Under the pieces are notes generated by a model. That model worked only from the letters and a program-made list of their open reading frames with translations, had not been told where the DNA came from and ran no database searches. Below, one piece after another: positions 10,760-37,845 of a stretch of DNA of 64,000 nt; position 1 is the stretch's first letter; each line of letters starts with the position of its first letter. The stretch is from the NCBI RefSeq assembly GCF_014930455.1, contig NZ_JAAIYO010000002.1, positions 62,001-126,000 on the forward strand, written 5' to 3'. This stretch comes from Corallococcus soli (lineage in GTDB: Bacteria > Myxococcota > Myxococcia > Myxococcales > Myxococcaceae). Position numbers and translations under genes: made by a program.

Positions 10760-11559
10760 GCCTGGAGGCGCGTGACGTGGAGGTGTGGCGAGGGCGAGGG
10801 CGCGTGGCGGGCCCGCTGTCGCTGGAGGTGCGGCCCGGCGAAGTGCTGGCCGTGGTGGGCCCCAACGGCGCGGGCAAGTCGTCGCTGGTGGCCGCGTTGT
10901 CGGGCGAGCTGCGCTGCAAGACGGGAGACGTGTTCCTGGAGGGCCGCGCGCTGCATGGGTGGCCCCTGGTGGAGCGCGCGCAGCGGCTGGGCGTGCTGCC
11001 CCAGGAGTCCTCGCTGGGCTTCGGCTTCACCGCGCTGGAGGTGGCGCTGCTGGGGCGCAGTCCGCACGCGCGGCGCGGCGGCGCGGAGTCCGACCTGGAG
11101 GTGGCCCGCGCCGCGCTGGATGCCACCGACACGCAGCACCTGGCCTCGCGCGCGTACACCACGCTGTCGGGCGGCGAGCGGCAGCGGGTGCAACTGGCGC
11201 GCGTGCTGGCCCAGCTGTGGACGCCCCCCGCGCAGGGCCACCGCTACCTGCTCCTGGATGAACCCACGGCGAGCCTGGACCTGTCCCACCAGCACCTGGT
11301 GCTGGAGCGGGCGCACGCCTTCGCGCGTGAGGGCGGCGCGGTGCTCGCGGTGTTGCACGACCTGAACCTGGCCGCGCGCTACGCGGACCGCATCGCGGTG
11401 CTGGACCAGGGCCGCTGCGTGGAGCTGGGCACCCCCACGGGCGTCCTCACCCCGGACCTCATCGCCAACACCTTCGGGTTGCGCGTGGAGGTGCTGTCGC
11501 GGCCGGACCTGCCCGGACCGCTGGTGATTCCCATGGGCCGCGCGTCGCCGCCGCCTTGA
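10756..11559 (+). CDS. hmuV: heme ABC transporter ATP-binding protein
   Basis: 267 residues, overlapping the permease gene by ATGA. All ABC motifs are intact: Walker A (G-P-N-G-A-G-K-S-S, near 34), a Q-loop in V-L-P-Q-E-S, signature L-S-G-G-E-R-Q-R near 137, Walker B R-Y-L-L-L-D-E-P-T-A-S-L-D-L near 165, and the H-loop V-L-H-D-L-N-L-A near 200. The H-D-L-N-L-A stretch and the V-L-T-P-D-L tail are typical of FecE/HmuV importers. It is the last gene of the heme operon; the next gene, 75 bases away, is on the opposite strand. I see no T-rich terminator in that gap. Confidence 0.93.
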   Translation: MSLEARDVEVWRGRGRVAGPLSLEVRPGEVLAVVGPNGAGKSSLVAALSGELRCKTGDVFLEGRALHGWPLVERAQRLGVLPQESSLGFGFTALEVALLGRSPHARRGGAESDLEVARAALDATDTQHLASRAYTTLSGGERQRVQLARVLAQLWTPPAQGHRYLLLDEPTASLDLSHQHLVLERAHAFAREGGAVLAVLHDLNLAARYADRIAVLDQGRCVELGTPTGVLTPDLIANTFGLRVEVLSRPDLPGPLVIPMGRASPPP

Positions 11560-11634
11560 AAGCCCAGGCCTTCCCGTGAACGCCCCTCCAGGGCCGCGCG
11601 TCGGACCCTCCTCGCGGCGGGTGTCGCTCCCTGC

Positions 11635-12306
11635 TCACATCCGGACCGTCCGCTCCCGAACCGCGCGTCGCACGGGGGCCGCGGCGGGTTCCGGACGCAG
11701 GTAGCCCAGCGCCAGCGCGGCGATCTCCTCCACGAAGCCCTCATCCTCCAGGTAGTCCGGTCGCTCCGTCACCGCCGTGTGGCAGAGCGCCTCCACGCTG
11801 GTCACCAGGATGAAGACCGCCATGTCCAGGTTCTGGGGACGCAGGTCCTCGAAGCGTGGCGCCAGGAAGGCGCGCACCACCCGGAACAGGCGCTGCGAGT
11901 ACACATCCGACAGGCCCCACTGGCGCATGCGCGGCATCAGCTCATGCAGCACCTGGTTCAGGCGCGGGTTCTCCCGCTTCACGGCGATGACCTGCCGGAT
12001 GAGCGCGCGCATCGCCACCGGAAGCGGCTGCCCGGCCAGCGGCACCAGCCCCGCCTCGAAGTCCGCCACGCTCCGAGCGCGGTGCTGCTCCATCAGCGCC
12101 GTCACCAGCCCCTCCTTGCTCGGGAAGTACTGGTAGAGCGAGCCGACGCTCACGCCCGCCTCCTGCGCGATGCGGTTGGTGCTCGCGGCCTCGTACCCGT
12201 CCTTGACCAGAACGCGAGCAGTCGCGGTGAGGATGGCCTCACAGGTGGCCTGCGACCGCTCCTGGCGGGGCGCCCTGCGACGGGAGGGGGGCGGACGGCG
12301 GGGCAT
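11635..12306 (-). CDS. TetR-family transcriptional repressor
   Basis: 223 residues. The ATG at 12306 has GGAGGTCCC directly upstream; the frame stays open beyond it but loses coding character. After a Pro/Arg-rich head, the TetR helix-turn-helix is clear at about 20-65 (A-I-L-T-A-T-A-R-V-L, A-S-T-N-R-I-A-Q-E-A-G-V-S-V-G-S-L-Y-Q-Y-F). The C-terminal ligand domain is of the common AcrR-like kind and gives no ligand hint. It is divergent from a short-chain dehydrogenase gene. A 24-base palindrome lies between the two starts, so the regulator very likely controls that gene and itself. Confidence 0.93.
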   Translation of the reverse strand: MPRRPPPSRRRAPRQERSQATCEAILTATARVLVKDGYEAASTNRIAQEAGVSVGSLYQYFPSKEGLVTALMEQHRARSVADFEAGLVPLAGQPLPVAMRALIRQVIAVKRENPRLNQVLHELMPRMRQWGLSDVYSQRLFRVVRAFLAPRFEDLRPQNLDMAVFILVTSVEALCHTAVTERPDYLEDEGFVEEIAALALGYLRPEPAAAPVRRAVRERTVRM

Positions 12307-18183: not shown

Positions 18184-18747
18184 TCAGCGTTCCAGGAAGT
18201 TCGCGAGCAGGCGGGGGCCTTCGCGCGTGAGGAAGGATTCGGGGTGGAACTGCACGCCCTCCAGGCCCGGCAGCTCGCGATGGCGCAGGCCCATCACCAG
18301 GTCGCCGGACCAGGCCGTCACCTCCAGGCACGCGGGCAGGCTGTCGCGGTCCACCACCAGCGAATGGTAGCGCGCGGCGGTGAAGGGCTGGGGCAGGCCG
18401 CGAAAGACGCCCTGTCCCCGGTGTTGGACTTCGGCCGTCTTGCCGTGCACCGGCACGGGGGCGCGCACCACCTTCGCGCCGAACACCTGCCCGATGCCCT
18501 GGTGCCCCAGGCACACGCCCAGCAGGGGCACGCGGCCCGCGAAGGCGCGGATGACGTCCAGGGACACGCCGGCCGCATCGGGTGTCTTCGGCCCGGGCGA
18601 GATGACCACATGGCTGGGCCGGAGCGCCTCCGCCTGCGCGACGGTGATGGCGTCGTTGCGCACGACGTGGAGCGTGGCCCCGAGCGCACCCAGGGCCTGG
18701 ACCAGATTGAAGGTGAATGAGTCGAAGTTGTCGATGAGGAGGATCAT
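18184..18747 (-). CDS. pabA: glutamine amidotransferase subunit (PabA/TrpG type)
   Basis: 187 residues, starting in an ATGA overlap with the upstream synthase gene. The class I amidotransferase motifs are complete: [11 protein letters not shown] at the start, S-P-G-P-K-T-P near 51, the nucleophile in G-V-C-L-G-H-Q-G-I near 78, and the His/Glu pair in V-Q-F-H-P-E-S near 168. It supplies ammonia from glutamine to the chorismate-using subunit. PabA and TrpG are interchangeable in many bacteria; with pabC next door, folate synthesis is the likely main role. Confidence 0.9.
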
Positions 18748-20198
18748 CGCGGCCTCGTGCTCGCGGCCAGGGCGAGCAGCTGGGAGCGGGCCTTGTTGAG
18801 CGTCTCCTTGTATTCGCGCCGGGGCTCCGAGTCGTGGACGATGCCGCCGCCGACCTGCGCGTACGCGCGGCCGTCCTTCACCACCACGGTGCGGATGACG
18901 ATGTTCAGGTCCAGCCCGCCCGCGAAGCTGAAGTAGCCGAGCGAGCCCGTGTAGAGCCCGCGCGGGTGGGGCTCCAGCTCGGTGATGATCTCCATGGTGC
19001 GCAGCTTCGGCACGCCGGTGATGGTGCCGCCCGGGAACAGCGCCCCCACCACGTCGAGCGGCTCCACGCCGGGCGCGAGCTGCCCGACGACCTCCGACTC
19101 GATGTGGAGGACGTGCGCGTATTCGATGATCTCCATCAACCGGGTGACCTCCACGGTGCCGTACGCGCAGACGCGGCCCAGGTCGTTGCGCTCCAGGTCC
19201 ACGAGCATGGCGTGCTCGGCCTGCTCCTTCTCGCTGGTGCGCAGCTCGTGCACGAAGCGCGCGTCCTCCTCGGGCGTGCCCCGGCGGCGGGTGCCGGCGA
19301 TGGGGCGCGTGGTGGCGCGGCCGTCCTCCACGCGCACCAGCCGCTCTGGCGAAGCGCTGACGACCTGGAAGCTCTCCGCTTCGAAGTAGCTGGCGAAGTG
19401 GACGGGGCTCGTCACGGACAGCGTCTCGTAGAGGGCCAGCGGGTCGCCCGGGAAGTCCACCTCCAGGCGCTGGGAGAGGTTGACCTGATACGTGTCGCCC
19501 GCGCGGATGTACTCGCGCACGCGCTCCACCGCGAGCAGGTAGGCGTCCTGCGTGAAGTTGGAGCGCCAGGCCGGAAGCGGCAGGTCCGGAGGCGGGGGCG
19601 CGGGGGGCGGCGTGGCGACGGCGGCGCGCACCTGCGAGGCGAGGAGGTCCAGGCGGCGTGAGCAGTCCTCCCAGTCCGCTCCCGTGGCCACGGCGTGCAC
19701 GGTGTGCTCCAGGTGATCCACCACCAGGAACGTGTCCACGAAGTGCAGCGCGATGTCGGGCACGCGCAGGTCGTCGTGGGGGTGGTGGGGCAGGGCTTCG
19801 AAGAAGTGGCTGGCCTCGTAGGAGAAGAAGCCCACCGCGCCGCCACAGAACAGGGGCAGGCCCGGGAGGCGGAGGCCCTTCCACCGGCGGAGCAGGCCGC
19901 GCAGGACGGTGAGGGGCGCGCCGTCCTGGAGAACGCCGTCGACCTGGCACTGCGCGCCCCGGGCGGTGAAGCGCAGGAAGGGACAGGCGCCGAGGAGGGA
20001 GTAGCGGCCCTCGCTGCTCGTGCGGGTGCTCTCCAGGAGGAAGCGGTCGCCCGCGGGCAGGGCGCGCAGCAGGTCCACGGGCCGCGCTGCGCCCACGTCC
20101 AGGGGCCGCGCCAGGGGCACCTGGGTGTAGCCCTGGGCCACGAGCGCGTCGAAGCGGGCGCGGTCCAGCGAGGGGAGGGGGGAAGCGGGAACGGCCAT
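18744..20198 (-). CDS. pabB: chorismate-binding synthase component I (PabB-like)
   Basis: 484 residues. The C-terminal chorismate-binding domain is full length: [11 protein letters not shown] near 234, S-A-S-P-E-R near 281, P-I-A-G-T-R-R-R-G at 299-307, [10 protein letters not shown] near 334, and [14 protein letters not shown] near 386. In E. coli PabB the third residue of the P-I-x-G-T motif is a catalytic Lys; here it is Ala, as in anthranilate synthase and in some PabB proteins. Neighbouring pabA and pabC, and the absence of trpD/C/B/A, support aminodeoxychorismate synthase. An anthranilate synthase role is not fully excluded. It heads the operon. Confidence 0.84.
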
Positions 20199-23498: not shown

Positions 23499-25907
23499 TC
23501 AGGGGTGCCGGGGACCCTCCGCGTCTCCGGACGCTTCGGTGAGCGCGGGCAGCGTGAAGAAGAACGCCGCGCCCCGCCCCGGTGGGCTCTCCACCCAGAC
23601 GCGGCCCCCGTGCGCATCCACCACGCCCTTGACGATGGCGAGCCCCAGCCCGACGCCCGCCTTGTGCGCGTGGATCGCCTGCCAGAAGCGATCAAACACA
23701 TGGGGCAGCGCTGTCGCGTCGATGCCCGGCCCCGTGTCCTCCACGCAGAAGCACACCTGTGCCTCCCGGCGCTCCGCCTTCAGGAGGATGCGGCCCCCCG
23801 GGGGCGTGAACTTGATGGCGTTGCCCACCAGGTTCTGGAAGACGCGCAGCACCCTCGCGCGATCCGCGCACACCCGCGGCAGGTCCGGCCCGAGCGACAC
23901 CTCCAGCCGCAGGGACTTGTCCGCCGCCAGCGGCTCGTTGAAGCCCTGCACCTGCCCGAGCAGCGCGGGCACGTCCAGCGTCTCCAGGTCCAACCCTGGC
24001 TGCCCCGACTCCACCCGCGCCACCTCCAGCAGGTCGTCGATGAGCCGGTCCATGTTGCCCACCACGAGGCGCACCTTGCGCAGCGCCTCCGTGACGCCAG
24101 GGCCGTTGTCTCCGTGGGCCAGCCGCCGCTCCGCGCCATTGCACAGCAGGGAGATGGTGTTCAGCGGCGCGCGCAGGTCGTGCGAGACAATGCCCAGGGT
24201 CTCGTCGCGCGTGGTGACGGCCTGCCGCGCGGTGCGGTACAGCCGCGCGTTCTCAAGCACCAGCGCCGCCCGCCGCGCCAGCTCCTGCACCAGGGACAGG
24301 TCCTGCGCTTCGTAGCGCAGGTCCGGACGCAGGGACACCAGCACCAGCACGCCCAGGGGACGCGCCTGGGTCATCAGGGGCACGGCCACCGCGGATTGCA
24401 CGCAAGGCGCGTCCCGGGAAGGCCCATGCAGGTGCACCACCGCCTCCGTGCGCAGGGCCTCCTCCACCATCCGCCCCAGCGCGCTCGCGGATCCCGCGCG
24501 GAACACCGCGTGCAGTGCGCCCTCCAGGTAGGGCGTCACCGCGGCGACCACGGTGGAGGGCTCCTCCCCATGGGGCCCGACCGGCGTGGCGATGGCGCAG
24601 CCGTCCGCGAGCGTGGGCACCGTGAGCTTCGCCACGGAGCGCGACACGTCCCCCCAGTCCAGGGAGCTCGCGCTGGCGGCGCTCACCTCGGAGAGGAAGT
24701 GGCTCCACAGCTCGGACCTGCGCTGCTCGGTGACGTCGCGGAAGTAGACGGTGAGCCCCTCGGGTGAGGGGTACGCGACGACGCGCAGCCACCGGTCCGC
24801 CAGGGCCGACGGCTGGTCCTCCTCCACCGGGGTGCCTGCCTGCGTCGCCCGGAGCAGCAGGGACTCCATCACCGCGCCGCGGGACTCGGAGAGGACCTCC
24901 GCCGGGCGCCAGCCCAGCAGGGCCTCGCGCATCCGCCCGAAGTGCGCCTCCGCGTGCCGGTTCACGTAGGTGAACCGGCCGTCCCGGTCGAACGCGGCGA
25001 AGCCGTCGGTGATGCGCTCGAGCACCGCGTTCAGCCGCTCGCGCGCGGTCTCCGCCTGCTCGCGCGCCGCCTCCTCGCGCGCCAGTCGCCACAGGGCCTC
25101 GCCGGCTTCATGGCGCCCGGTGATGTCCTCGTGGGCCACCACCAGGCGCAGCGGACCCTGGCCGACGAAGCGGGTGACGCGCATCAGGAACCAGCGCCGC
25201 CTGCCCCCGGGCTCATGGCACGGGTACTCCTGCAGGAACGACTCCGCGCGGCCGGTGATGATGTCGCGGATGCCCGCCGCGACGAAGGCGGCCTCCTCGG
25301 AGAACGCGCCCTGCGCGGCGTCCGTCACGCCCAGGTAGTCCGCGCCCACGCCGCACGCGCCCGAGTCCTCCGGGCAGCCGTTCTCCCGCGCGAAGCGCCG
25401 CCACGCGGCGTTGACGGCGAGGATGGTGCCCTGCCCGTCGAGGATGGCGATGTGCGTGGACAGCGAGTCGAGCGTGGAGCGCAGGAACTGCTCCGACTCA
25501 TGCAGTGCCTGCTCGGCCTGCTTGCGCGCGCTGATGTCCCGGCAGAAGACGAGGAGCCCCTGCTTGGAGGGGTAGGCCCGCACGCCCACCCAGGTCTCGA
25601 GCGGCGCGTAGAACGCCTCGAACGCGACGTCGACCCGCTTCGCGAGCGCCCGCTGGTACTCCTGCTCGAACACGGTGCCGCGCGCCTGGGGAAACTCCTT
25701 CAAGACCTTGCGTCCGATGAGCTCCGAGCGCGGGCGTTTGAGCAGCCACTCGGCCCGCGTGTTGACGTAGGTGAAGCGCCAGGTGCGGTCGAACGAGAAG
25801 ACCGCATCCGAGATGTGCTCCAGGATGTCGAGGGCGTGGCTGGGCCCTTCCTCGATGGCCGCCGTCCCCCCACCCGAGATCCGTCCCTGGCCCGGTCGCA
25901 AGATCAT
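23499..25907 (-). CDS. sensor histidine kinase with three PAS domains and a GAF domain
   Basis: 802 residues from the ATG at 25907; the frame also allows a GTG at 25949. In order: PAS (about 25-135), PAS with PAC (about 140-270), PAS (about 290-400), GAF (about 420-570), HisKA and HATPase_c. The phospho-acceptor is the His of I-V-S-H-D-L-R-A-P-L-N. ATP-binding boxes follow: N in F-Q-N-L-V-G-N-A-I-K-F, G1 in V-E-D-T-G-P-G-I, F in F-D-R-F-W-Q, and G2 in G-V-G-L-G-L-A-I-V-K. There is no transmembrane segment or receiver domain, so it is a soluble sensor. The C-terminal stop lies 20 bases from the convergent phosphoesterase. No response regulator is adjacent, so its partner is unknown. Confidence 0.92.
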   Translation of the reverse strand: MILRPGQGRISGGGTAAIEEGPSHALDILEHISDAVFSFDRTWRFTYVNTRAEWLLKRPRSELIGRKVLKEFPQARGTVFEQEYQRALAKRVDVAFEAFYAPLETWVGVRAYPSKQGLLVFCRDISARKQAEQALHESEQFLRSTLDSLSTHIAILDGQGTILAVNAAWRRFARENGCPEDSGACGVGADYLGVTDAAQGAFSEEAAFVAAGIRDIITGRAESFLQEYPCHEPGGRRRWFLMRVTRFVGQGPLRLVVAHEDITGRHEAGEALWRLAREEAAREQAETARERLNAVLERITDGFAAFDRDGRFTYVNRHAEAHFGRMREALLGWRPAEVLSESRGAVMESLLLRATQAGTPVEEDQPSALADRWLRVVAYPSPEGLTVYFRDVTEQRRSELWSHFLSEVSAASASSLDWGDVSRSVAKLTVPTLADGCAIATPVGPHGEEPSTVVAAVTPYLEGALHAVFRAGSASALGRMVEEALRTEAVVHLHGPSRDAPCVQSAVAVPLMTQARPLGVLVLVSLRPDLRYEAQDLSLVQELARRAALVLENARLYRTARQAVTTRDETLGIVSHDLRAPLNTISLLCNGAERRLAHGDNGPGVTEALRKVRLVVGNMDRLIDDLLEVARVESGQPGLDLETLDVPALLGQVQGFNEPLAADKSLRLEVSLGPDLPRVCADRARVLRVFQNLVGNAIKFTPPGGRILLKAERREAQVCFCVEDTGPGIDATALPHVFDRFWQAIHAHKAGVGLGLAIVKGVVDAHGGRVWVESPPGRGAAFFFTLPALTEASGDAEGPRHP

Positions 25908-26042
25908 CCACCACCCCGCCCATCCACCACCCTGGCCGACGGCGGGCACCGTGCCCGCTTCCCCATGAGGACCTCCCGAGAGAAGACGTCCTGATGAAGT
26001 ATGCGCCCTGTGGCTTCAGTGCAGCCCCGCCTGAGCGCCCCC

Positions 26043-28019: not shown

Positions 28020-28484
28020 CTAGATGTCGTGATCGCAGACGAGGCACTTGGGTGGGGCTTCGCTGCCCGCCATGGCCATGACGGGCCCTTGCATGACGGG
28101 GAAGGGAGGCGTGTTCTTGTCGTTGTGGAGCATGAGGTCGAAGGCGCGCGCCACGTTCTTGCCTTCGAACTTCACGTCGAAGGAGTAGTTGACGAACTCG
28201 GCCTTGCCCTTGGTCTTGTTGGAAGCCACGCCGCCGCCGGCGGTCCCTGCCTCGTCGCCGGTGCTCATCTTGAAGTTGGAGTCCTTCACGCACACGGGGT
28301 TGCCGGCCACGGACACCTTCTTGGTGCCCTTGTCGGTGTCGGAGGACTTCGCCACGTTGGGGTAGGGAATGGGCACGGGCCCGGCGGGGCTGGGCGTCTT
28401 GCACACGTCCGGGAAGGCCATGGTGACACCGCCACTGTCCTTGGTGACGACAGACATCTTGTTCACACCGGTGTTGACGGGCAT
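28020..28484 (-). CDS. PAAR-like protein (DUF4150)
   Basis: 154 residues, with GGAGGAATT before the ATG. The DUF4150 core is evident: F-P-D-V-C-K-T-P-S-P-A-G-P-V-P-I-P-Y-P-N near 24, S-V-A-G-N-P-V-C near 58, and A-G-T-A-G-G-G-V-A-S near 82. The short Cys-containing end (K-C-L-V-C-D-H) is typical too. PAAR proteins form the sharp cap of type VI secretion spikes and carry effectors. It is first of the three-gene minus-strand operon and divergent from the toxin operon, which suggests joint function. Confidence 0.88.
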   Translation of the reverse strand: MPVNTGVNKMSVVTKDSGGVTMAFPDVCKTPSPAGPVPIPYPNVAKSSDTDKGTKKVSVAGNPVCVKDSNFKMSTGDEAGTAGGGVASNKTKGKAEFVNYSFDVKFEGKNVARAFDLMLHNDKNTPPFPVMQGPVMAMAGSEAPPKCLVCDHDI

Positions 28485-28748
28485 GGCCAATTCCTCCAGG
28501 GCGCATGATAGCGCGCGGAAGGGCTGAACGCTCACGGGGCGTGGATTTTGCTGACAAGGGTGAGGTGCCCACATCCAGGGCTGGTTACATCCCACCACCC
28601 TGTGCCGTCTGAGCTGGGCTTCGAGAAGCAGGTGTCCAGGAAGGTCATGGACAGGACGCCAGAGGAGGCCCAGACTTCGCCGGGCGCCAGGGGCCTTGAA
28701 TGGGCTTCCAGGGAACGTTGAACGCGAACCGCCATGGCCTGATGAAGG
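28485..28748. other. divergent intergenic region between tip and toxin operons
   Basis: 264 bases between the start codons of the PAAR-like and KAS-like genes. Base composition is lower in G+C than in most of the window. I could not find a clear -35/-10 pair or a convincing palindrome. Short minus-strand and plus-strand frames cross it but none looks coding. Two promoters should lie here. Confidence 0.45.
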
Positions 28749-29861
28749 ATGGACGCGTTGGACCTCGTCATCACCAGCCTGGGGATGGTCTCGTCTGTGG
28801 GACGGGATGTCGTGATGGCCTGCGCGGCCATTCGTGCTGGAATTGCCTGCGCCCAACCGCTCACCTACTTCGAGGTGCTCGACGAAGCCTCACAGGAGAT
28901 GGAGCCAGTCACCGGCCATCCCATACGTGGGCTCACCGAGGGCTTCACCCTCATCGGCCGCTGGCTGCTGCTCGCCCGTGCTTGTGTGGCCGACTTATTC
29001 CATCAGGGCGCGCTTCCGGATGCCACCCATGCCTCCTTCTGGCGCGCGACGGGAATACGAGTCGTCACGCCGTACCATGGGGATGAGCGGTTTGGCGTCG
29101 AAGCAAGCGATGCTGCCCCCTCCAGGGAGCCCATCCGGAGGGCCTACCTTCAGCCGCTTCTCGAAGCACTGCGGCTGCCCATTGACGAGCGCAACGCCGA
29201 CCTCCTCTGTCAAGGCCCCTCGGGGGCAATCCAGTCCATCCATGAGGCCAGCGGATGGATGGAGGCGCGTGGGCTGGAGCGGATGCTCGTCATCGCGGCC
29301 GATTCCTATTGTGACCCACTGACGCTGGAGTGGCTCGCAGGATACCGAAGGCTCAAGACGCCGGAAAATCCTCAGGGCCTGATGCCAGGTGAGGCAGGTG
29401 CCTGCTTCCTGCTGGAATCGGCAGCGAGTGCTCGTCGGAGGAGTCCCTCAATGTGTTTTGCCATCGCCAGCGCGGCGATTCGGGTGGAACAGAATCACTT
29501 CTTCAGCCGAAAACCCAATACCGGAATCGCGCTGGCGGAGGCCCTGGAGGAGACCGTGGCTGGCGCCATGCCCAGGGCGCCTTTCGCGGGCTGCATGGTG
29601 TCAGACCTGAATGGCGAGAACTGGCGTGCGAATGAGTGGGGCTACGCCCGGATTCGGCTGGCTCAGTGGTTCGCGGAGGGACCTTCTTTGATGCTGCCAG
29701 CGGTTTCCGTGGGGGATACGGGGGCGGCCAGCGGTGCTGGCAGCGTGTGCGTGGCCGCCAGGGCCCTCGCGCGAGGATATGCGAGAGGTGCGCAGATCCT
29801 GGTGGTTTCCAGTTCGGAACGTGGGCACGTCGGCGCGATGTGCCTGTCCATGAAAGGATGA
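28749..29861 (+). CDS. degenerate beta-ketoacyl-synthase-like protein of the toxin operon
   Basis: 370 residues. The thiolase-superfamily plan is visible: V-I-T-S-L-G-M-V-S-S-V-G at the start, A-S-G-W-M-E-A-R-G-L-E-R near 166 leading to L-V-I-A-A-D-S-Y, P-G-E-A-G-A-C-F-L-L-E near 213, and a G-D-T-G-A-A-S-G-A-G loop at 322-331. None of the catalytic positions survives. The Cys site reads Q-G-P-S-G (155-159), the first His site D-L-N-G-E (286-290), and the second has Asp for His in V-G-D-T-G. It should therefore be a scaffold or chaperone. Similar proteins occur between PAAR-like and AHH toxin genes. Third-position G+C is lower than in flanking genes. Confidence 0.78.
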   Translation: MDALDLVITSLGMVSSVGRDVVMACAAIRAGIACAQPLTYFEVLDEASQEMEPVTGHPIRGLTEGFTLIGRWLLLARACVADLFHQGALPDATHASFWRATGIRVVTPYHGDERFGVEASDAAPSREPIRRAYLQPLLEALRLPIDERNADLLCQGPSGAIQSIHEASGWMEARGLERMLVIAADSYCDPLTLEWLAGYRRLKTPENPQGLMPGEAGACFLLESAASARRRSPSMCFAIASAAIRVEQNHFFSRKPNTGIALAEALEETVAGAMPRAPFAGCMVSDLNGENWRANEWGYARIRLAQWFAEGPSLMLPAVSVGDTGAASGAGSVCVAARALARGYARGAQILVVSSSERGHVGAMCLSMKG

Positions 29862-29864
29862 ACC

Positions 29865-30725
29865 GTGTCGGATCCTTCCGCGCAGCAGCATGAAGAGGAC
29901 GTAGCACACAGGATTCATGTCAGCGTCAAGAACACGACCGAAGGCGGAAGATGTCTCAACCGCCACATCGCCGCGTGGGAGCCCTTGACCTGCTCCCACC
30001 GCTGGCAGGCCTTCAAGCATGCCCTGGAGGACGCCCACCTCTACAACTGGCCGGCCTACAAGAAGCTCGCTCGGGGCAAGGAGATCCGCACAGACGCGAT
30101 GCGGAACCACACCAGCAAGAGCGGGACCCTCTACCCCATCTTCCCCGAAGGGTATCGGTTCCTGCTCAAAGCTCCGAAACAAGGTGACTGGGACGTCTCC
30201 GAGTCCGTGGCCAGCAAGAACTTCAAGTGGGACTACCGGACTCCATACATCCACAATGGCCACCATGTCGTCACCAACAGCCAACTCCGAGGTGCCGCCA
30301 ACAAGCTTGAGAAGAAGTTTCCGAACGCCACCCTCATTGTTCGTCGAGGACTGGCAAGGGCCGGCTACAATTTGAACCACAAGCTCAACATGGTCATCCT
30401 GCCAATGGACAGGAAGGTGGCGGGTGCGCTGAATCTTCCTCGTCACCTCATCACGTTCCTGTATCGGGATCACCGCTCGTACAGCGACTTCGTAGGGAAG
30501 CGCCTGGACAAGATCATGCGTTCCTACGAAGGCGAGCTGCGCAAGTATGTTCGCAAGGACAAGGAACACACGAAGCTGGCCCATGAGCTGGCCAAGGAGC
30601 AGCTTGAGATGCTCTCCGCGGAAATCTATTCGCAGATTGTCGCACGCCAGAACAAGGAGGAGCGCGAGGGAGGTACTCCAGGATATACGGGGACGCTGGA
30701 TACCCTCATCAATGGGATGCCATGA
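29865..30725 (+). CDS. AHH-family nuclease toxin
   Basis: 286 residues from a GTG start four bases after the preceding gene. The AHH signature is clear: N-G-H-H-V-V-T at 131-137, Y-N-L-N-H-K-L-N-M-V-I-L-P at 168-180, and L-P-R-H-L at 191-195 followed by D-H-R-S-Y-S-D-F-V. AHH domains are predicted His-His metal nucleases of the HNH/endonuclease VII fold, used as toxins in polymorphic and type VI effectors. The N-terminal 120 residues are charged and have no known trafficking domain. It lacks a signal peptide, so delivery probably depends on the neighbouring PAAR-like tip. The stop overlaps the Imm11 start (ATGA). Confidence 0.87.
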   Translation: MSDPSAQQHEEDVAHRIHVSVKNTTEGGRCLNRHIAAWEPLTCSHRWQAFKHALEDAHLYNWPAYKKLARGKEIRTDAMRNHTSKSGTLYPIFPEGYRFLLKAPKQGDWDVSESVASKNFKWDYRTPYIHNGHHVVTNSQLRGAANKLEKKFPNATLIVRRGLARAGYNLNHKLNMVILPMDRKVAGALNLPRHLITFLYRDHRSYSDFVGKRLDKIMRSYEGELRKYVRKDKEHTKLAHELAKEQLEMLSAEIYSQIVARQNKEEREGGTPGYTGTLDTLINGMP

Positions 30726-31309
30726 AATTCTTCGAGCTGGAGACACTGGGCGATCTCAACGACGCCGAGTTGCTGTTCTTGGACCAGGAGCCGGAGGTGA
30801 TGGGGCTGGACGGGTATTGCCTGGCTGCGGGTGAGCGTCTTGGAGACGGATATCCCGAGGAGGTGAAGCTCCAATCAGGCGAGGATCGCCCAGGTATCCA
30901 ACTCTCCTCGGTGCTGGGAAACAACTTCAACTACCTCATCGTGTGCAGCGCGATGAAGGACGTCATCGCGGCGACCTGTCCGAAGGATACCCTCGAATGC
31001 CTGCCCTTCACCCTCCTGGACCCTCGGGGGCGCGTTCGCAGTCAGGACTACTTCTTCATCAATCCGATCGGCGGCGTGGACGGCGTGGATGCCAAGGCCA
31101 GTGACATCAAGTACCACCGTAGCGGTGCCATCGTCGGCATCCGTAAGCTGGTTCTGGATCCGGAGAAACTGCGCGGCGCTCCCTCGCTCTTCCGCCTCCA
31201 GCAAGACCTGCAACTCTACGTGGTGAGTGAACCTCTGGCCCGGACGTTCCAGGAGCGGGGCTTCAGCAACGTGGTGCTGCGGGAACTGGCGGTTTCCACG
31301 ACATCCTGA
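30722..31309 (+). CDS. Imm11-family immunity protein
   Basis: 195 residues, coupled to the toxin gene by an ATGA overlap. The Imm11 (DUF1629) pattern appears in M-K-F-F-E-L at the start, P-x-x-V-x-L-Q-S-G-E near 48, D-V-I-A-A-T-C near 80, the C-L-P-F-T-L segment, D-Y-F-F-I-N-P near 109, and a closing L-Y-V-V-S-E-P-L-A-R-T-F near 164. These proteins usually sit directly after AHH or related nuclease toxins and block them by binding. Tight coupling to the upstream gene supports this pairing. Confidence 0.82.
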   Translation: MKFFELETLGDLNDAELLFLDQEPEVMGLDGYCLAAGERLGDGYPEEVKLQSGEDRPGIQLSSVLGNNFNYLIVCSAMKDVIAATCPKDTLECLPFTLLDPRGRVRSQDYFFINPIGGVDGVDAKASDIKYHRSGAIVGIRKLVLDPEKLRGAPSLFRLQQDLQLYVVSEPLARTFQERGFSNVVLRELAVSTTS

Positions 31310-32104
31310 ATGCACTGCCTGGAAGGGGATCCCGTGGCGTCGAAGTTCCTATCTGTCTTCATTGACAATGCGCTTGGCGAAAACGAAGAGCTGCTTCCGG
31401 CCTTTCTTGCTGGCAGGGGCGGAATGAAGGAGGCCCTCCGATTCAGCCAGAACTTTCGGATCGCGGGCATTGGCTCGTTATTGATGTCTGGCAGCCCTGC
31501 CCACTTTCATGAGTGTCTGCATGCCAGCGCACGTGCCTTCGCTCACTTCGCCCGTTCCTCCCCCGGGGCAAACCTGACCAGCCGTTCGCAGCCGTTCTTC
31601 GACGCGGTCGCCTGTGGAGACACCGAAGCTGCGCGTGTGATCGCACGCCTCGCTCCTCGGGCTTGCGATAGGAATCGCGAGTACGAGGAGGACTTCCTCT
31701 TCGTCCGCTTCCTCATGGACCATTGCTTCTTGGATATGGATTGGCGTGACGGGAAGGCCCAGCTTGAGCGCTACGAGGAGGTCCTTGCAGGCTCGCTGGA
31801 TGTGCGGCTCGATGTGTGTCAAGCCCTGGCGGCGGCGGCGGATGGAGCCCGTTTCGACGAAGCACTCACACGGATGATGGAGGCGCGGGAACTCCGTTTC
31901 CAGAGGCTCGGTGAGAAGGAAACGGTCGCCGAGGAGGTGCTCGCGACGGAGGGCTACGTCTCCGTGGAAGGGCTCGCGCTGGTCCGCCTTGCTGTTTCGA
32001 AGGGGCTGCATCCGCAGGAGGACTTCCTGTTCATCCCCTCTGTGGCGCTCGACGAGGTTCACCTTCGCTACCGCCCAGACTCCTGGAAGCACTTCTTTAC
32101 ATAG
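31310..32104 (+). CDS. Imm49-like immunity protein
   Basis: 264 residues, with the ATG immediately after the stop of the Imm11 gene. The pattern R-E-Y-E-E-D-F-L-F-V-R-F-L near 123, Y-V-S-V-E-G-L-A-L-V-R-L-A near 217, and the closing E-D-F-L-F-I-P-S resembles the Imm49 family, a helical immunity protein of about this length. It may protect against a second toxin that is not in the window, or complement Imm11. The Imm49 assignment comes from remembered pattern and should be verified. The gene has a lower G+C third position than most of the window. Confidence 0.68.
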   Translation: MHCLEGDPVASKFLSVFIDNALGENEELLPAFLAGRGGMKEALRFSQNFRIAGIGSLLMSGSPAHFHECLHASARAFAHFARSSPGANLTSRSQPFFDAVACGDTEAARVIARLAPRACDRNREYEEDFLFVRFLMDHCFLDMDWRDGKAQLERYEEVLAGSLDVRLDVCQALAAAADGARFDEALTRMMEARELRFQRLGEKETVAEEVLATEGYVSVEGLALVRLAVSKGLHPQEDFLFIPSVALDEVHLRYRPDSWKHFFT

Positions 32105-32232: not shown

Positions 32233-35200
32233 TCAGTGGCTCTGTTCGCGTGAGCGGTGCGCGAGCTGGAGGATTTCATCCTCGGAGAGTTGATCTGTCT
32301 TGATGATGTTCCGGTCCGCCTTGAGCTGTTCCACCTGTCCGTCGCGCAGGACATGGAACTGCCCTTGCTTCTGCGCAGGGAGCTTCGCGGCGGCATCGAC
32401 GCGTGCATCCGCGAACATGGGCCGGAGCTTCCGGATGGCCGTATCTTCCTTCACCCGACCGACGCACCAGGTGCGCACGTTGTCCCTGCACTTGTAGTCC
32501 AGGTCTCCCGGGCTCTGGGTCGCGAGCATCACCCCGATGCCCGCCGAGCGGGCGCGCTTCAGCAGGTTCTCCATGGGCTGCTTGGTGGCGGGCATGCTCA
32601 TCGCGGGGAGGTACAGGTCGGCCTCGTCGAACAGGAGCACCGCCTGGAGCCGGGACGAGGGGTGCTGGCTTGCCCAGCGATTGGCTTCCACGAGCAGCTG
32701 CGACACCCAGAAGAGCGAGCCCTGCGTTCCGCCCAGGAACTTGGTGCTGATGATGCTCAGCCGGGTCCGTCCGGGAACCTTCGCGGTTCCGCGACCCAGC
32801 AGTTCTTCCATGTCCAGCTTCTCCCCCTGGGCTGCCAGCAGGTTGCGTGCGTTGAGCCGCAGCGTCGCCAGGTCCTGCGCGAGCCTGGGGAACACCCTGA
32901 GGTCCAGGCCGCTCACCTCCTGGACGAGCGTGATGTCCTGGGAGGCGATGAACTTCTGGAGCAGGTCCAGGGTCAACTCCTGCCCCAAGGGACGTTCCAC
33001 CAGGAGGCGCAATGCCTGGGCCAGCAGCGCCTTCGCCGCCTTGTCCTTGGGACTGTTCTTGTACTCCAGCATGCTCGCGATGGCCTCCGCTGCCTGCTGC
33101 ACGCTCTGGTCGCGCTCTTCGGGCGGCAGGGCCTCCAGCCCCCGCGGCACGAGCGGGATGGCCAGCGGCCGTCCGTCAGAGCGTCCCGGGGTGTAGAGCG
33201 CCACGTCCACGCGCTCGCGCAGCAGGCGACGGCGCTCGTTCAGGACGGGGTCCTTCAGCTCCTCCTCCCAGGCCTCGTCACGCGCATACGCCGCGAGGTC
33301 TCCCTTGCGGTCGACGAGCAGCGCCGGGATGCCCTGCAGGAGCAATTGCTCGATGATGTTCAGCGCGAGCGTCGTCTTGCCGCTTCCGGAGCCGCCGAGG
33401 AACGCGCTGTGCTTCGTCAACTCCTCCGCCTGGATGAAGACAGGCTGGGTGAAGACGCTCTCGGAGATGCCCAGGCGCATCGCTTCCGGCTTCGCATCCG
33501 GAGGACTGGCTTTCAGTTGTGGCACCTCGACGGGCGTCTTCGCGCGCCCAGGCGCCTTGCTCACCAGGGGCGGACCCATGGCCGTGAGTTGATGTCCGTC
33601 CAGCCTTGTCTCCGCGCGCGAGGCCTCCGTGGAGGCTTCGGACTCCCGGATCTGATCAGGCTCCTCGTCGGACCGGATGTCCAGCCGCCGCGCGCTCTCA
33701 GAGGAGGCTCCGCGAAGCTCTCCCTGGACTGGCTTCGTGACACTCGAGACGGAGGTGCCTTTGGCCGAGGAGATGGGGGGCGGTGGAGCCTGACGCGCGG
33801 GCTCAGGGGGGGGCACGCCCTTCTCCAGTGCGAGCACGTCGGTAATGGACTTCAGCCGGGTGACGGGACGGACCATTCGGCTCCACTCAACGAAGGCTGG
33901 CTCCGGCTGTTGCTGACGGAAGGCACGCAGGGCCAGGAGTTCTCGCAGGTCACTGTTCCCAAGCACTGCCCTCCGCCCGCCACGCTTCATGAGGGTCGTC
34001 GTCGACTCCTCGACGAGCGTCCCGAGCGAGCCTGGGAAGTCCGTCGTGCGAACGAGGACGGGAACGCGTCTGGCGGCGGACTTGATGGCGTCCGCCATCT
34101 GCCGTCCCAGATGACCACCCCGGGAGGACTTGTTGCAGAGCGCGACGAACATCTTCGCGTCCCCGGGCTGCATGGTGACGTTCAGGCTCTCCTCGTCTTG
34201 GGGTTCGACTTTGAAGCGAGGGGAGCCTCCCAGCTCATCGCCACCGACTTCGATGGCCCAGGCAAGCAGTTCGGCGATCTCTGAATCTTCCTCCGGGACC
34301 CGCTGCTTGAACTTCGCGCGGAAGTCGGTCCACGCCTGCTCCAGGTTGGGCCGCTGCGGACTCTCGGCTTCCTTGAGCTGTTCCTTGCCCTGCCCGTGGG
34401 AGGGCACATCGAGCGACCTCGGCAGTCTTCCGTCCTGCATGCCGCGCTCGTGGAACCGGCGACACGCGTTGAGGAGGTCGCGGGTCCGCAGCCCGCTGAA
34501 CATCTCGATTTCACCGGCGGGAATCGGATAGGTCGGGTCCTTCGGGTCGATTGAGAGGTTGTGCTGCGCGTACAGGAACTTCAGGCGCTGCACGACCATG
34601 TCCCGGGCCGTCTCCGCGGTCAGCAGTCGTTCCAGGACGACCGGCTCGGGGTCCTGCTCGATGCGGTCCAGCAGGGAGCGCGTGAGCTGTGCCTGGATCT
34701 TCTTCCAGAAGTCCGACAGGCAGCAGACGACGACGATGGCGGTGGGAACATTCCCGATGAACGCGACCAGGCTGTTCATCGCCCGGCGGAAGGACGAGTC
34801 CATTCCGGAACTGGGCTCGAAGTCGATGCTGTCTTCAATCTGGTCGACGCAGAGGATCAGCGCCTGTCCCATCACGCCCATCAGCCGGCCCAGTTGCGAC
34901 AGCATCCGCATCGGGTCCGAGTCCGCGGTGCGCGACACCATGTCGCCAATCATCCCGCGGTCCGCGGGGGCCATGTCCTCGCACCGCAGCCACTGGAGGA
35001 TGCGGTGGTGGAACCGGGCTTCCCGGCGCTGGAGATAGATGAGCGCGCGGAGCAACTGGACGTCGACGTGGCGGAAGTCCGCCTCCTCGTGCAGTTCATC
35101 CGCGAGGGAGCGGATCATGTCGTGCAGCTCGTGCTCCTCGAGGATGCTCTCCTCGGGAATCAGCGGCGCGAAGGCGCTCGTGCAGCGCTTCATGACCGCG

Positions 35201-35610
35201 TTGGACAGTCGCATCAGTCCCGAGTCTTCGCCGACCTTCAGGTCATAGGGGCGGTCAAGGGCCTCAATCAAGCTCACGAGGATGTGCCGGTCGTAGTTGG
35301 CCGCATCCACGGTCATGGGCATGTAGCCGACGTAGCCCTGCTCCTTCTGGTGGACGCCGTTGCGGAAGGCGCGGACCAGGTGGGTCTTTCCGCTGCCGGA
35401 TTCCCCCTGGAGGAGCAGGAACTTTCCCGACTCGGGAGCGGGCATCCGGTTGGCGCGCTTCACCAGTCGCTCGAAGGCGCGACGGGCGGGGGTGTTGATG
35501 GATTCCACGTCGAACGGGTCAGGCTTCCAGAAGGACTGGGCCTGCTGGATGCTGGCGAAGACTTCGGGTCCATCCGCCAGGAATGCTTCAAGACGTGCGT
35601 CGGTGGGCAT
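32233..35610 (-). CDS. two-module P-loop ATPase (AAA/ORC-like plus HerA-like) of putative defence cassette
   Basis: 1125 residues, with AGGAG upstream. Module one is AAA/ORC-like: Walker A G-E-S-G-S-G-K-T (69-76), Walker B A-L-I-L-C-V-D-Q-I-E-D (250-260) and a helical lid near 320-395. A middle part of about 430-600 contains a Rossmann-like stretch (K-M-F-V-A-L-C-N-K). A Pro/Ser-rich linker (600-710) follows. Module two is HerA/DUF87-like: H-S-A-F-L-G-G-S-G-S-G-K-T-T (Walker A near 739-747), V-D-R-K-G-D-L near 766, Walker B V-L-L-F-D-E-A-D-L-Y (991-1000), and L-A-T-Q-S-P-G-D-L near 1029. The HerA-like half suggests a ring-forming DNA or nuclease partner ATPase. It is the last gene of a three-gene operon. 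Confidence 0.82.
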   Translation of the reverse strand: MPTDARLEAFLADGPEVFASIQQAQSFWKPDPFDVESINTPARRAFERLVKRANRMPAPESGKFLLLQGESGSGKTHLVRAFRNGVHQKEQGYVGYMPMTVDAANYDRHILVSLIEALDRPYDLKVGEDSGLMRLSNAVMKRCTSAFAPLIPEESILEEHELHDMIRSLADELHEEADFRHVDVQLLRALIYLQRREARFHHRILQWLRCEDMAPADRGMIGDMVSRTADSDPMRMLSQLGRLMGVMGQALILCVDQIEDSIDFEPSSGMDSSFRRAMNSLVAFIGNVPTAIVVVCCLSDFWKKIQAQLTRSLLDRIEQDPEPVVLERLLTAETARDMVVQRLKFLYAQHNLSIDPKDPTYPIPAGEIEMFSGLRTRDLLNACRRFHERGMQDGRLPRSLDVPSHGQGKEQLKEAESPQRPNLEQAWTDFRAKFKQRVPEEDSEIAELLAWAIEVGGDELGGSPRFKVEPQDEESLNVTMQPGDAKMFVALCNKSSRGGHLGRQMADAIKSAARRVPVLVRTTDFPGSLGTLVEESTTTLMKRGGRRAVLGNSDLRELLALRAFRQQQPEPAFVEWSRMVRPVTRLKSITDVLALEKGVPPPEPARQAPPPPISSAKGTSVSSVTKPVQGELRGASSESARRLDIRSDEEPDQIRESEASTEASRAETRLDGHQLTAMGPPLVSKAPGRAKTPVEVPQLKASPPDAKPEAMRLGISESVFTQPVFIQAEELTKHSAFLGGSGSGKTTLALNIIEQLLLQGIPALLVDRKGDLAAYARDEAWEEELKDPVLNERRRLLRERVDVALYTPGRSDGRPLAIPLVPRGLEALPPEERDQSVQQAAEAIASMLEYKNSPKDKAAKALLAQALRLLVERPLGQELTLDLLQKFIASQDITLVQEVSGLDLRVFPRLAQDLATLRLNARNLLAAQGEKLDMEELLGRGTAKVPGRTRLSIISTKFLGGTQGSLFWVSQLLVEANRWASQHPSSRLQAVLLFDEADLYLPAMSMPATKQPMENLLKRARSAGIGVMLATQSPGDLDYKCRDNVRTWCVGRVKEDTAIRKLRPMFADARVDAAAKLPAQKQGQFHVLRDGQVEQLKADRNIIKTDQLSEDEILQLAHRSREQSH

Positions 35611-35632
35611 GGTGGCTCCTGGTGGTGGCGGA

Positions 35633-36655
35633 CTAGACGACGACGAAATGGAAGGTGGCGCCGTAGAAGCGCACCTCGGATTCGGCCACGTCGGCTGGAT
35701 CCATGACCGACACGAGGTCCGCGCGCGTCAACGACAGATGGCGCTTGCGGTTGGCTTCGAGCAGCGCGGTGTCGAAGGCTTCACGGCTCGCCCACTCCGG
35801 CTGCAGGGCCTTCCACACATGCGAGATGAAGACCTTGTCATCCCCGAAGCGCCCCGTGGGCAGGGCCCGAGCCACCTTCAACACCCGCTTCGCGAAGGAG
35901 GCCGCATCCGCGGGCAGCCCTTCCACGGGCGTCGCGACGCGCTCCGGTTCGGCGGGCTTCTTCGGCTCCGGCGCGTCCTCCGCCAGCACCCACTCCCGCA
36001 TCACCGCCAGCCGCACCACCTCCGCGTCCACCCGCGCCGCGCTCACGGTCCTCGCGGCCAGCTGCTCCACGCCGCGCTTCGGGTCGCTGACGTCCTGCTC
36101 CAGCAGCTGGCCCAGCAGGTGCGCCTGCACCGCGCGCAGGGAGAACTTCTCCGCCGTCTCCACGCCCAGCTGACGCCACAACAGCCGGTCCCGCACCTGC
36201 TCCAGCGTCGGCGTCTCCGGCCCCTCCACCTTGTGCGCCCGCTTGAGCAGCAACGCGCGCACACCATTCGCATCCGCCAGCCTCCCGAACACCGCCTTGG
36301 AGTTCGGCAGGCCCAGGCCCCTGGCCAGCAGGTGCTGCTGCTTCACCCGCTTCCACGTCAGCCCCTTGGGCGAATCCACCCGCAGGAACTTCAGCGCCCG
36401 CTGCCGGCCCTGGCCCGTCAGCGCCAGCGCCGTGCGCGAGCGCTTCTCCACCAGCCTTGCCTCCTGCAACCCTTCCAGCAGCGCGTCGAACCGCTCGGTC
36501 CACTGGCCTCGGCTCCAGCGGTGCTCCACGAAGGCATGCAGCGTCTTCGCCAGCTCGTTGCGCGTGCCCGGCTTCTTCTCCGAACGGGTTGCCAGCCAGG
36601 CCAGGGCCAGGCCCTGGAGTCGGGTATCAGGGGTGTCGGTGCTGTCCATGGTCAT
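35633..36655 (-). CDS. helix-rich, possible winged-helix protein of putative defence cassette
   Basis: 340 residues. The ATG at 36655 overlaps the stop of the nuclease gene (ATGA), which fixes the start. The N-terminus (T-R-N-E-L-A-K-T-L-H, L-E-G-L-Q-E-A-R-L-V, T-A-L-A-L-T-G-Q-G) reads like a winged helix. The C-terminal 75 residues (K-V-F-I-S-H-V-W-K-A-L, F-D-T-A-L-L-E-A-N-R, S-L-T-R-A-D-L-V, S-E-V-R-F-Y-G-A-T-F-H-F) look like a second one. A Pro/Glu hinge lies near 235. It could be a DNA-binding or adaptor subunit linking the nuclease and the ATPase. I know no named family. Confidence 0.65.
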   Translation of the reverse strand: MTMDSTDTPDTRLQGLALAWLATRSEKKPGTRNELAKTLHAFVEHRWSRGQWTERFDALLEGLQEARLVEKRSRTALALTGQGRQRALKFLRVDSPKGLTWKRVKQQHLLARGLGLPNSKAVFGRLADANGVRALLLKRAHKVEGPETPTLEQVRDRLLWRQLGVETAEKFSLRAVQAHLLGQLLEQDVSDPKRGVEQLAARTVSAARVDAEVVRLAVMREWVLAEDAPEPKKPAEPERVATPVEGLPADAASFAKRVLKVARALPTGRFGDDKVFISHVWKALQPEWASREAFDTALLEANRKRHLSLTRADLVSVMDPADVAESEVRFYGATFHFVVV

Positions 36656-37845
36656 GGCTCCCGCCCGGCGAGCTCTCGCCTCCGGGCTGCAATCAATGTG
36701 TCGAGGGTATGGAGGATGTGCTCCAACTGGGACAGCACGTCCGTCGCGAGCAGCCGGAACACCCAGTAGCCCGCGCGCTGGAGGTCCAGGTCCTTGCGCC
36801 GGTCGCGGCGAAACCGCTCCGGATCCTGGAAGTGGAAGTAGCCGTCGACCTCCACCGCGAGGCGCAGCTCCCGGCTCAGGAAGTCCACCTCCCAGGAGCG
36901 CTTGTCCTCGGGGTGCAGCCGGACGTTGTGTTCGAAGACCCCCGCCGTGGCCGCGTGCTCCTCCAGCCGGTCGCGCAGGTAGGCCTCCGCCTTGCTCCGG
37001 GACTTGTCCGGGGCCGGGCCCCCCGCGCCCGTGAGCACCTCCAGCGCCACCTCCGCGGCGCTCACCCGCTGCGCTTCGGGCGCCCCGGCGCGCTCCAGCT
37101 TCCGGAGCGTCTCCACCGCCCCCTCCACCCCCGCCGCCCCGGGCACCTCCAGCAGCCCCTCGCGCACCAGCGCCTTCAGCCGGGACTCCCCGCCGCGCAG
37201 GAACGCCTCCAGCGCCTCGGCCGTCACCCCGCACGCCACCGCCAGCGCCGGCACCGCGTTGCTCAGCGCCCCGGCCACCTGGAGCCCCCGGAACGACGGC
37301 GCCACGCCCGCCGGCACGCGCACCACCGGCGCGCACCCGGGCGGCACCAGTGCGTGCAGGGCCCGGAGCCCCGCGCCCACGCTCTTCGCCAGCGCCGCGC
37401 TCACCGCGTCCGGCAGCGCCCCCGGCGCCGTCGCCTCCCTGCCGACGACGAGCGCACGGCACAGCGCCCACGTCGCCTCCGGCAACCGCGCGGGCGGCGA
37501 CAGCCCGTCCAGCAGCACGCGCCGCTCGTGCGCCGTCTTGCCCGTGAACACCGGCGTGTGTCTGGGATTTGCGGCCGTCAGGCTGAACGTCGCCAGCGCC
37601 TCCGCGTCCGCCCCCAGGTCCCTGCTCGCCGCCAGCGCCCGCGCCCAGCCCAGCGCCGCCGCGTGCAGGTCCTCACCGGAGACCTCCACCACCCCCAGTC
37701 CGTGACGGGCGGCCCAGCGGGCCCAGAGCGCGCTCGCGGCGTCCGCCGGGCCCTCCAGGACGCTCAGCGTCGCGATGCCTTCCCTCCGGCGTCGGGCCTG
37801 CCGATCCAACGCATCCAGCAGCCCGACTTCTCCCGCCAATGGCAA
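36652..37845 (-). CDS. DUF559/Vsr-like endonuclease protein of putative defence cassette
   Basis: 397 residues. Residues 1-270 are an Ala/Leu-rich helical region with no named domain. The C-terminal 120 are a DUF559/Vsr-type PD-(D/E)xK nuclease: S-K-A-E-A-Y-L near 283, W-E-V-D-F-L (Asp 321), L-A-V-E-V-D-G-Y-F-H-F (Glu 332, Asp 334), and D-R-R-K-D-L-D-L-Q-R-A-G-Y-W-V-F-R near 348. All metal-binding acids are present, so it should be active. No ATG or GTG is in frame before a stop near 37873, so the start is a TTG at 37845 (or 37839), with a G-rich stretch upstream. First gene of the cassette. Confidence 0.78.
   Translation of the reverse strand: MPLAGEVGLLDALDRQARRRREGIATLSVLEGPADAASALWARWAARHGLGVVEVSGEDLHAAALGWARALAASRDLGADAEALATFSLTAANPRHTPVFTGKTAHERRVLLDGLSPPARLPEATWALCRALVVGREATAPGALPDAVSAALAKSVGAGLRALHALVPPGCAPVVRVPAGVAPSFRGLQVAGALSNAVPALAVACGVTAEALEAFLRGGESRLKALVREGLLEVPGAAGVEGAVETLRKLERAGAPEAQRVSAAEVALEVLTGAGGPAPDKSRSKAEAYLRDRLEEHAATAGVFEHNVRLHPEDKRSWEVDFLSRELRLAVEVDGYFHFQDPERFRRDRRKDLDLQRAGYWVFRLLATDVLSQLEHILHTLDTLIAARRRELAGREP

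Follow-up and report, generated by a model that had tools for sequence, protein, structure and literature searches.

How do nucleases coupled to HerA motors tell foreign DNA from self when no modification enzyme accompanies them? The question is raised by a three-gene cassette of Corallococcus soli, which spans positions 37845-32233 on the minus strand of the window (the whole stretch analyzed here, 64,000 nucleotides of contig NZ_JAAIYO010000002.1). Its three open reading frames (ORFs), named NUC, MID and ATP in their order of reading, are:

37845-36652, minus strand: NUC, 397 amino acids, TTG start, DUF559/Vsr-fold nuclease
36655-35633, minus strand: MID, 340 amino acids, probable winged-helix protein
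35610-32233, minus strand: ATP, 1125 amino acids, Orc/STAND-like AAA+ ATPase plus HerA

From sequence evidence, we propose that the cassette is one anti-invader DNA-restriction machine operating without a methyltransferase, a reading to which we give a probability of about 0.62. Anti-phage or anti-plasmid action had been suggested in a preliminary description of the window, and an anti-invader role indeed appears to fit best.

That the three genes belong together is apparent from their layout. NUC and MID meet in an ATGA overlap and 22 bases separate MID from ATP; in most related loci 17-37 bases lie between MID and ATP, and NUC abuts or overlaps MID. The coordinates, junctions and residue numbers of the preliminary description all agree with the ORFs, and its view of the three genes as one unit is upheld by their co-conservation in the same order across three phyla. 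The gene order is identical in Tsukamurella, Nonomuraea and Methylobacterium:

Tsukamurella tyrosinosolvens (L079): NUC 2244-3281, MID 3278-3949, ATP 3946-7212
Nonomuraea gerenzanensis (L080): NUC 4207-5307, MID 5311-6018, ATP about 6015-9341
Methylobacterium aquaticum megaplasmid (L078): NUC 7210-8271, MID 8288-8968, ATP 8965-12219

The three-gene order is kept down to about 20-26% identity. Because it is conserved at such a distance and with its catalytic residues, the cassette must be regarded as a functional unit and not as a chance neighborhood.

NUC combines a C-terminal nuclease with an N-terminal domain of its own:

37021..37845, minus strand: NUC N-terminal domain, amino acids 1-275, no known family, no Pfam or PDB match
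36652..37020, minus strand: NUC DUF559/Vsr-fold PD-(D/E)XK nuclease domain, amino acids 276-397, Pfam PF04480 (3.1e-7), PDB 3hrl (6.4e-9)
36883-36885, 36850-36852 and 36844-36846, minus strand: NUC acids D321, E332 and D334, respectively

The DUF559 match, which lies above the Pfam cut-off, is the only one in the 9.4-Mb genome, and 3hrl is the nearest solved structure. The three acids, previously noted as intact, are invariant across 17 NUC homologues from three phyla, as are H338, D348, R349 and D352. The TTG start is consistent with the N-terminus LPLAGEV, which aligns with orthologue starts reading MPLAGEV. In the N-terminal domain, an opening beta-strand and a GPPGxAxxLW-type loop resemble a degenerate P-loop; this domain could be an inactive STAND-like domain.

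ATP is a two-module ATPase, with the following parts:

34411..35610, minus strand: module 1, Orc/CDC6-STAND-type AAA+ ATPase, amino acids 1-400, Pfam AAA_22 (6.3e-11) and Foldseek matches, residues invariant in 22 homologues
35380-35406, minus strand: Walker A of module 1, GESGSGKTH; its Walker B, VDQIED, lies around amino acid 256
33811..34323, minus strand: middle domain, amino acids 430-600, alpha-beta-beta-beta-alpha-beta pattern, possible inactive restriction endonuclease (iREase) followed by a helical piece
33541..33810, minus strand: low-complexity linker, amino acids 601-690, the fastest-evolving part (38% mean identity; ratio of non-synonymous to synonymous divergence, dN/dS, 0.72)
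32233..33540, minus strand: module 2, HerA/DUF87 DNA-translocase domain and stop codon, amino acids 691-1125, Pfam HerA_C (5.5e-10) and DUF87 (4.5e-9)
33370-33396, minus strand: Walker A of module 2, GGSGSGKTT
32620-32628, minus strand: Walker B of module 2, DEA

The Pfam matches are AAA_22/AAA_16 for the N-terminal half and HerA_C/DUF87 for the C-terminal half, where HerA structures in the PDB also match, down to 3.7e-13. Both Walker A/B pairs had been described as intact. In an alignment of 22 homologues at 22-72% identity, this holds for the Walker A of module 1 (G72, G74, K75, T76) and for the Walker A (G742-T746) and Walker B (D995, E996) of module 2, all invariant; the Walker B of module 1, however, is of the D-Q and not the D-E form, with D256 invariant and Q257 nearly so. 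D-Q is a normal form of this motif among STAND NTPases. Pfam nSTAND1 matches the first module weakly (8.8e-6, slightly below cut-off). A structure model of residues 1-620 reaches a predicted local distance difference test score (pLDDT) of 50 overall and about 60-88 in the AAA core; the best Foldseek matches of the AAA region in this low-confidence model are RdrA, ORC subunits, NLR resistosomes and Cdc6. On these profile and fold comparisons, module 1 belongs to the Orc/STAND-clade ATPases. The middle domain is without the acids of an active restriction endonuclease (REase), its strand and helix order being drawn from low-confidence secondary structure and alignments. Profile searches of this domain against Pfam and PDB gave no match and thus no confirmation, so that we name it a possible inactive REase by its predicted pattern.

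MID has no family match in Pfam, PADLOC or NCBIfam, and is described by a single line:

35633..36655, minus strand: MID, probable winged-helix domains at the N- and C-terminus around a helical middle

A winged-helix stretch is recognizable through weak similarity to DtxR/IdeR-type helix-turn-helix (HTH) proteins, and a low-confidence model (pLDDT 54) displays an HHH-EE-H pattern and a second HTH-like end. MID is tentatively a winged helix-turn-helix (wHTH) protein. We keep this assignment, as well as that of the iREase in ATP, tentative because both models are of low confidence.

Do these proteins make up a system already described? No model in PADLOC or NCBIfam represents the cassette, and we found no named system with DUF559 and DUF87 in the literature searched. 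The PADLOC run proposed in the preliminary description returned mad8 as its best match, which covers the HerA half only. The same description stated that the cassette has no described match. This is too strong, because an Orc/CDC6-type AAA+ ATPase, a HerA, an active REase and a wHTH protein together match the 'HerA/FtsK capture' class as set out in the main text of Rakesh, Aravind & Krishnan 2024 (PMC10853773), who predicted computationally systems composed of an Orc/CDC6 AAA+, an inactive REase, an active REase, HerA and wHTH. According to that text, the inactive REase is an insertion that separates the AAA+ core from a C-terminal wHTH, the active REase comes from one of two named families, HerA falls in clades 2, 4 or 5 of six, and some systems include a multi-wHTH protein with 2-4 wHTH domains (PMC10853773). 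Common to class and cassette are the Orc/CDC6-type AAA+, the HerA/FtsK translocase, an active REase, a distribution over single or multiple polypeptides, and independence from a modification enzyme; a rapidly evolving protein with probable wHTH domains and, behind the AAA core, a candidate inactive REase may be further shared features (PMC10853773).

The agreement can be followed component by component. The cassette has an Orc/CDC6-family AAA+ ATPase (from Pfam, and from Foldseek with a low-confidence model) and a HerA/FtsK domain (Pfam, PDB). Its nuclease, an intact PD-(D/E)XK domain of the DUF559 family, could belong to one of the two families named in the main text. The candidate iREase has the expected position and a compatible strand/helix pattern, lacks catalytic acids, and is modelled at low pLDDT with no profile match; MID offers weak wHTH similarity and two HTH-like regions in its model. 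In composition, then, the cassette would fit well into the predicted class as its main text defines it. That main text mentions neither DUF559 nor myxobacteria, and the sections of the paper at hand are without this nuclease family, a fixed core-locus state, block exchange or NUC-less copies (PMC10853773); the cassette may already figure in the supplements. A 2026 paper extends the capture class to BREX-related systems with PglZ (PMC12839542), of which the cassette is not one.

Other known systems share parts of this composition. DndFGH/DptFGH is likewise a three-gene restriction machine without a modification enzyme of its own, with a HerA domain (DndH), a nuclease and a multi-wHTH protein (DndG). 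However, DndH is about 1700 amino acids long and carries SNF2-like, target recognition (TRD), inactive methylase and REase domains before HerA, whereas in ATP an AAA+ module takes their place and a gene of its own encodes the nuclease: only AAA-type matches precede HerA in ATP, and the PADLOC DndH model matches the HerA end only. The HerA half is most similar to mad8 of MADS (1.7e-25, amino acids 732-1095 only); besides mad8, the MADS operon is represented only by an isolated weak mad3 P-loop match, and no methyltransferase is found among the flanking genes scanned. SIR2-HerA, DUF4297-HerA and NurA-HerA also couple a HerA ring to an effector nuclease or NADase, but with a separate HerA of about 570-620 amino acids and one effector, while here HerA is the C-terminus of an Orc/STAND-HerA fusion accompanied by a DUF559 nuclease and an extra wHTH protein. 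The NCBIfam profile NF042943 scores 18 bits against a cut-off of 800, with no SIR2 or DUF4297 domain detected. BREX (BrxC, BrxD) and RADAR RdrA share the Orc/STAND-type AAA+ (the BrxD profile matches at 3.8e-4 in L057, and RdrA is the best Foldseek match), but neither PglZ, PglX, BrxL nor RdrB occurs in the cassette or among its scanned flanking genes; for the BREX core, PglZ plus BrxC, PADLOC gave no match in the three proteins and Pfam none in the scanned neighbors. The cassette had been set apart from the BREX and SIR2-HerA gene sets at the outset, and this distinction stands.

How is the cassette distributed? Among 146 genomes of the phylum Myxococcota, MID is present in 52. Within the Myxococcaceae it occurs in all 49 sampled genomes of six genera, each time with ATP and an adjacent NUC; it was found neither in the remaining sampled genera of the family nor in its sister families, f2 among them. 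The order LPLAT - NAD-epimerase - MFS - NUC - MID - ATP recurs in Corallococcus wherever contigs reach. In a Myxococcus-like genus (g6), the cassette follows LPLAT/NAD-epimerase wherever the sequence extends that far upstream, and a trpE-like gene adjoins it; in the window the trpE-like ORF is at 18744-20198, separated from the cassette by insertions. Genus labels of these relatives come partly from named relatives and are otherwise inferred. Variable islands had been expected; instead, Corallococcus and Myxococcus carry the cassette at a fixed core locus.

Distant ATP-like matches in G118, G023, G069 and others proved to cover the HerA part only, without MID, and are not this cassette. In PLSDB, MID has no match and ATP matches four records, two of which are chromosome-like. 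The INPHARED phages contain no match to the cassette, and a phage or viral origin was likewise set aside: the two IMG/VR matches are unrelated stand-alone HerA proteins, and a second scan was empty. In Tsukamurella, a block (L079, 1492-10530) made up of the cassette, a VapBC pair and a DEAD/DEAH helicase interrupts the ribosomal-protein operon between rpsQ and rplN; although labelled a plasmid, the record looks chromosomal.

Alleles of the cassette differ more than their surroundings. In seven Corallococcus-type genomes, synonymous divergence (dS) is 0.15-0.21 in the upstream neighbors, 0.31 in NUC, 0.46 in MID, 0.60 in ATP and 0.26 downstream, and a dN/dS of 0.20-0.46 in the cassette domains outside the linker indicates purifying selection. 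Between G071 (L041) and G077 (L051), fourfold-site divergence is 0.06-0.10 in the flanks versus 0.33 in MID and 0.49 in ATP, and DNA identity is 92-97% in both flanks versus 62-82% from mid-NUC to the end of ATP. In this pair, the one compared base by base, the NUC N-domain was retained (93-96% identical), and the upper breakpoint lies close to where it gives way to the nuclease domain. Trees of the nuclease domain, MID, ATP-AAA and ATP-HerA each recover the clade {L050, L051, L100, L101} with support of 95-100, while the flanks reject it (approximately unbiased (AU) test, p=2e-8). The flank test is independent of the choice of group, since ATP data defined the group and the flanks served for the test. 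In the NUC N-domain tree these four are not a clade, and the AU test does not reject the grouping (p=0.31). In the Myxococcus-like genus, the cassette is again more divergent than its flanks, by a smaller margin, and close relatives among the strains carry a common allele. The simplest explanation is that two old allele classes have exchanged, by homologous replacement, a block made up of MID, ATP and the nuclease domain.

Copies outside the core locus occur as well. Paralogous MID+ATP pairs without a linked nuclease are present in G112 (L049), G083 (L053) and G141 (L070), and the more distant Myxococcota L056 and L057 are also NUC-less; a nuclease-free function of the three paralogous pairs is possible. 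By eye, these three, all from one genus, share a site next to trypsin-like protease and FHA-domain genes. In L056 (8424-17461), the ATP frame has an N-terminal extension and the neighbors include, by eye, possible PilZ-like, GreA-like and FtsZ/tubulin-like genes. The L049 copy adjoins a CBASS cyclase and E1-E2; Septu PtuA/PtuB lie near the cassette in L054 and PtuA (2.2e-167) in L055. In L058 (286-5593), the gene that begins 47 bases downstream of ATP encodes a fusion of an Orc-type AAA with a PtuA (Septu) ATPase (4.7e-90). These four defence-linked contexts among non-core copies are suggestive. The L058 fusion is in itself a hybrid of two defence ATPases, in a gene within which the contig ends.

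How might such a machine work? The invariant residues show selection on the nuclease and ATPase chemistry; what we infer is the sequence of events, the trigger and the target. MID, together with the Orc/STAND-type ATPase and the REase-like domain in the middle of ATP, would recognize, or load onto, some feature of foreign DNA. Instead of a missing methyl mark, this feature could be a DNA end, a structure, or an intermediate of replication or transfer. Probably forming a hexameric ring, the HerA domain would then pump DNA past or towards the PD-(D/E)XK domain of NUC, which would cut it. Self-protection would thus come from the trigger and not from modification. In the Myxococcaceae, the machine may have become a core immune locus, the specificity parts of which are renewed by allelic replacement.

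Several observations weigh against a restriction machine of this kind. Universal presence at a fixed place across the six sampled genera is unusual for a defence system, and no other known defence gene adjoins the core locus in the neighbor genes scanned. PLSDB, INPHARED and IMG/VR yielded no phage- or plasmid-borne counterpart beyond three replicons. The NUC-less loci L049, L053, L070, L056 and L057 demonstrate that MID+ATP can persist without a linked DUF559 nuclease. The poor models of MID (pLDDT 54) and of the N-terminal half of ATP (50) leave the wHTH and iREase calls shaky, and co-adaptation of nuclease domain, MID and ATP is suggested by a single two-class allele system in one genus. 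The first of these points would suit a housekeeping role, in which the cassette would be a core repair, recombination or chromosome-segregation machine of the Myxococcaceae. HerA and Orc-like ATPases serve such roles, the cassette is present in 49/49 genomes of the six genera, it holds an orthologous place between the LPLAT/NAD-epimerase and trpE-like genes in Corallococcus and Myxococcus, and it is under purifying selection. We nevertheless consider a housekeeping role unlikely, in view of the absence of the cassette from sister families (f2, for example) and from the rest of the family's sampled genera, the allelic block swaps with a cassette dS well above that of the neighbors, the second copies in some genomes, the NUC-less copies, the sporadic presence in distant phyla and the linkage to Septu, CBASS and PtuA. 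Defence is favored over it because of this block exchange, the patchy deep distribution, the extra and NUC-less copies and the Septu/CBASS links.

The target may also be narrower than invading DNA at large. A HerA/Orc machine could intercept DNA during conjugative transfer or plasmid replication with little effect on phages, since transfer and segregation are processes in which HerA/FtsK domains act, and interception of DNA at those steps is what the capture model proposes (PMC10853773). The PtuA and CBASS neighbors, however, are anti-phage systems, and the sequence offers nothing to separate plasmid from phage targets; we regard such an exclusion role as rather improbable. The combination of a PD-(D/E)XK nuclease with an Orc-type AAA also recalls the TnsA/TnsC pair, and in Tsukamurella the cassette sits within a gene insertion in a ribosomal-protein operon; both would suit a domesticated or resident mobile element, a Tn7-like nuclease plus AAA regulator whose genes serve the movement of the element itself. 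Yet the cassette itself encodes no integrase or recombinase, its position is kept across the genera Corallococcus and Myxococcus, and the exchange breakpoint lies inside NUC, so that homologous replacement explains movement at the core locus. A mobile element is hence very improbable, and the anti-invader restriction machine remains our preferred reading.

Flanking genes scanned with Pfam comprise MFS, immunity, toxin, PAAR-like and kinase genes. Next to the cassette lies a polymorphic-toxin module (28020-32104):

28020-28856, minus strand: Tox-PAAR-like protein
28749-29861, plus strand: ORF without clear family
29865-30725, plus strand: AHH nuclease toxin
30722-31309, plus strand: Imm11
31310-32104, plus strand: Imm49

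The preliminary description noted that the cassette adjoins this module. AHH, Imm11 and Imm49 genes are found only beside the cassettes of the closest relatives, and the corresponding locus lacks them in L033-L036, L039-L041, L050 and L051; because they are missing from so many relatives, we treat them as separate from the cassette, an unrelated insertion. Downstream of the cassette, a PAS/GAF histidine kinase (23499-25949, minus strand) has an unusually high mean dN/dS of 0.60 in Corallococcus-type genomes.

Taken to its full extent, our proposal is of an unnamed DUF559 / wHTH / Orc-STAND-HerA restriction machine that requires no self-methylation mark and serves as a permanent core immune locus in myxobacteria, where old allele classes cross species and the nuclease domain, adaptor and motor are swapped as a co-adapted specificity block. 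We advance this fuller version tentatively, at somewhat less than even odds. The cassette is compact, with three genes, it is conserved in the culturable and genetically tractable Corallococcus and Myxococcus, and it offers natural allele classes at one locus; block swaps between strains would map the specificity determinants, and the cassette would make a purely computational defence class testable. If the proposal is true, defence genes can belong to the core genome and be renewed through exchange of alleles instead of turnover of islands, and an immune-locus style of evolution would be at work at a fixed bacterial address.

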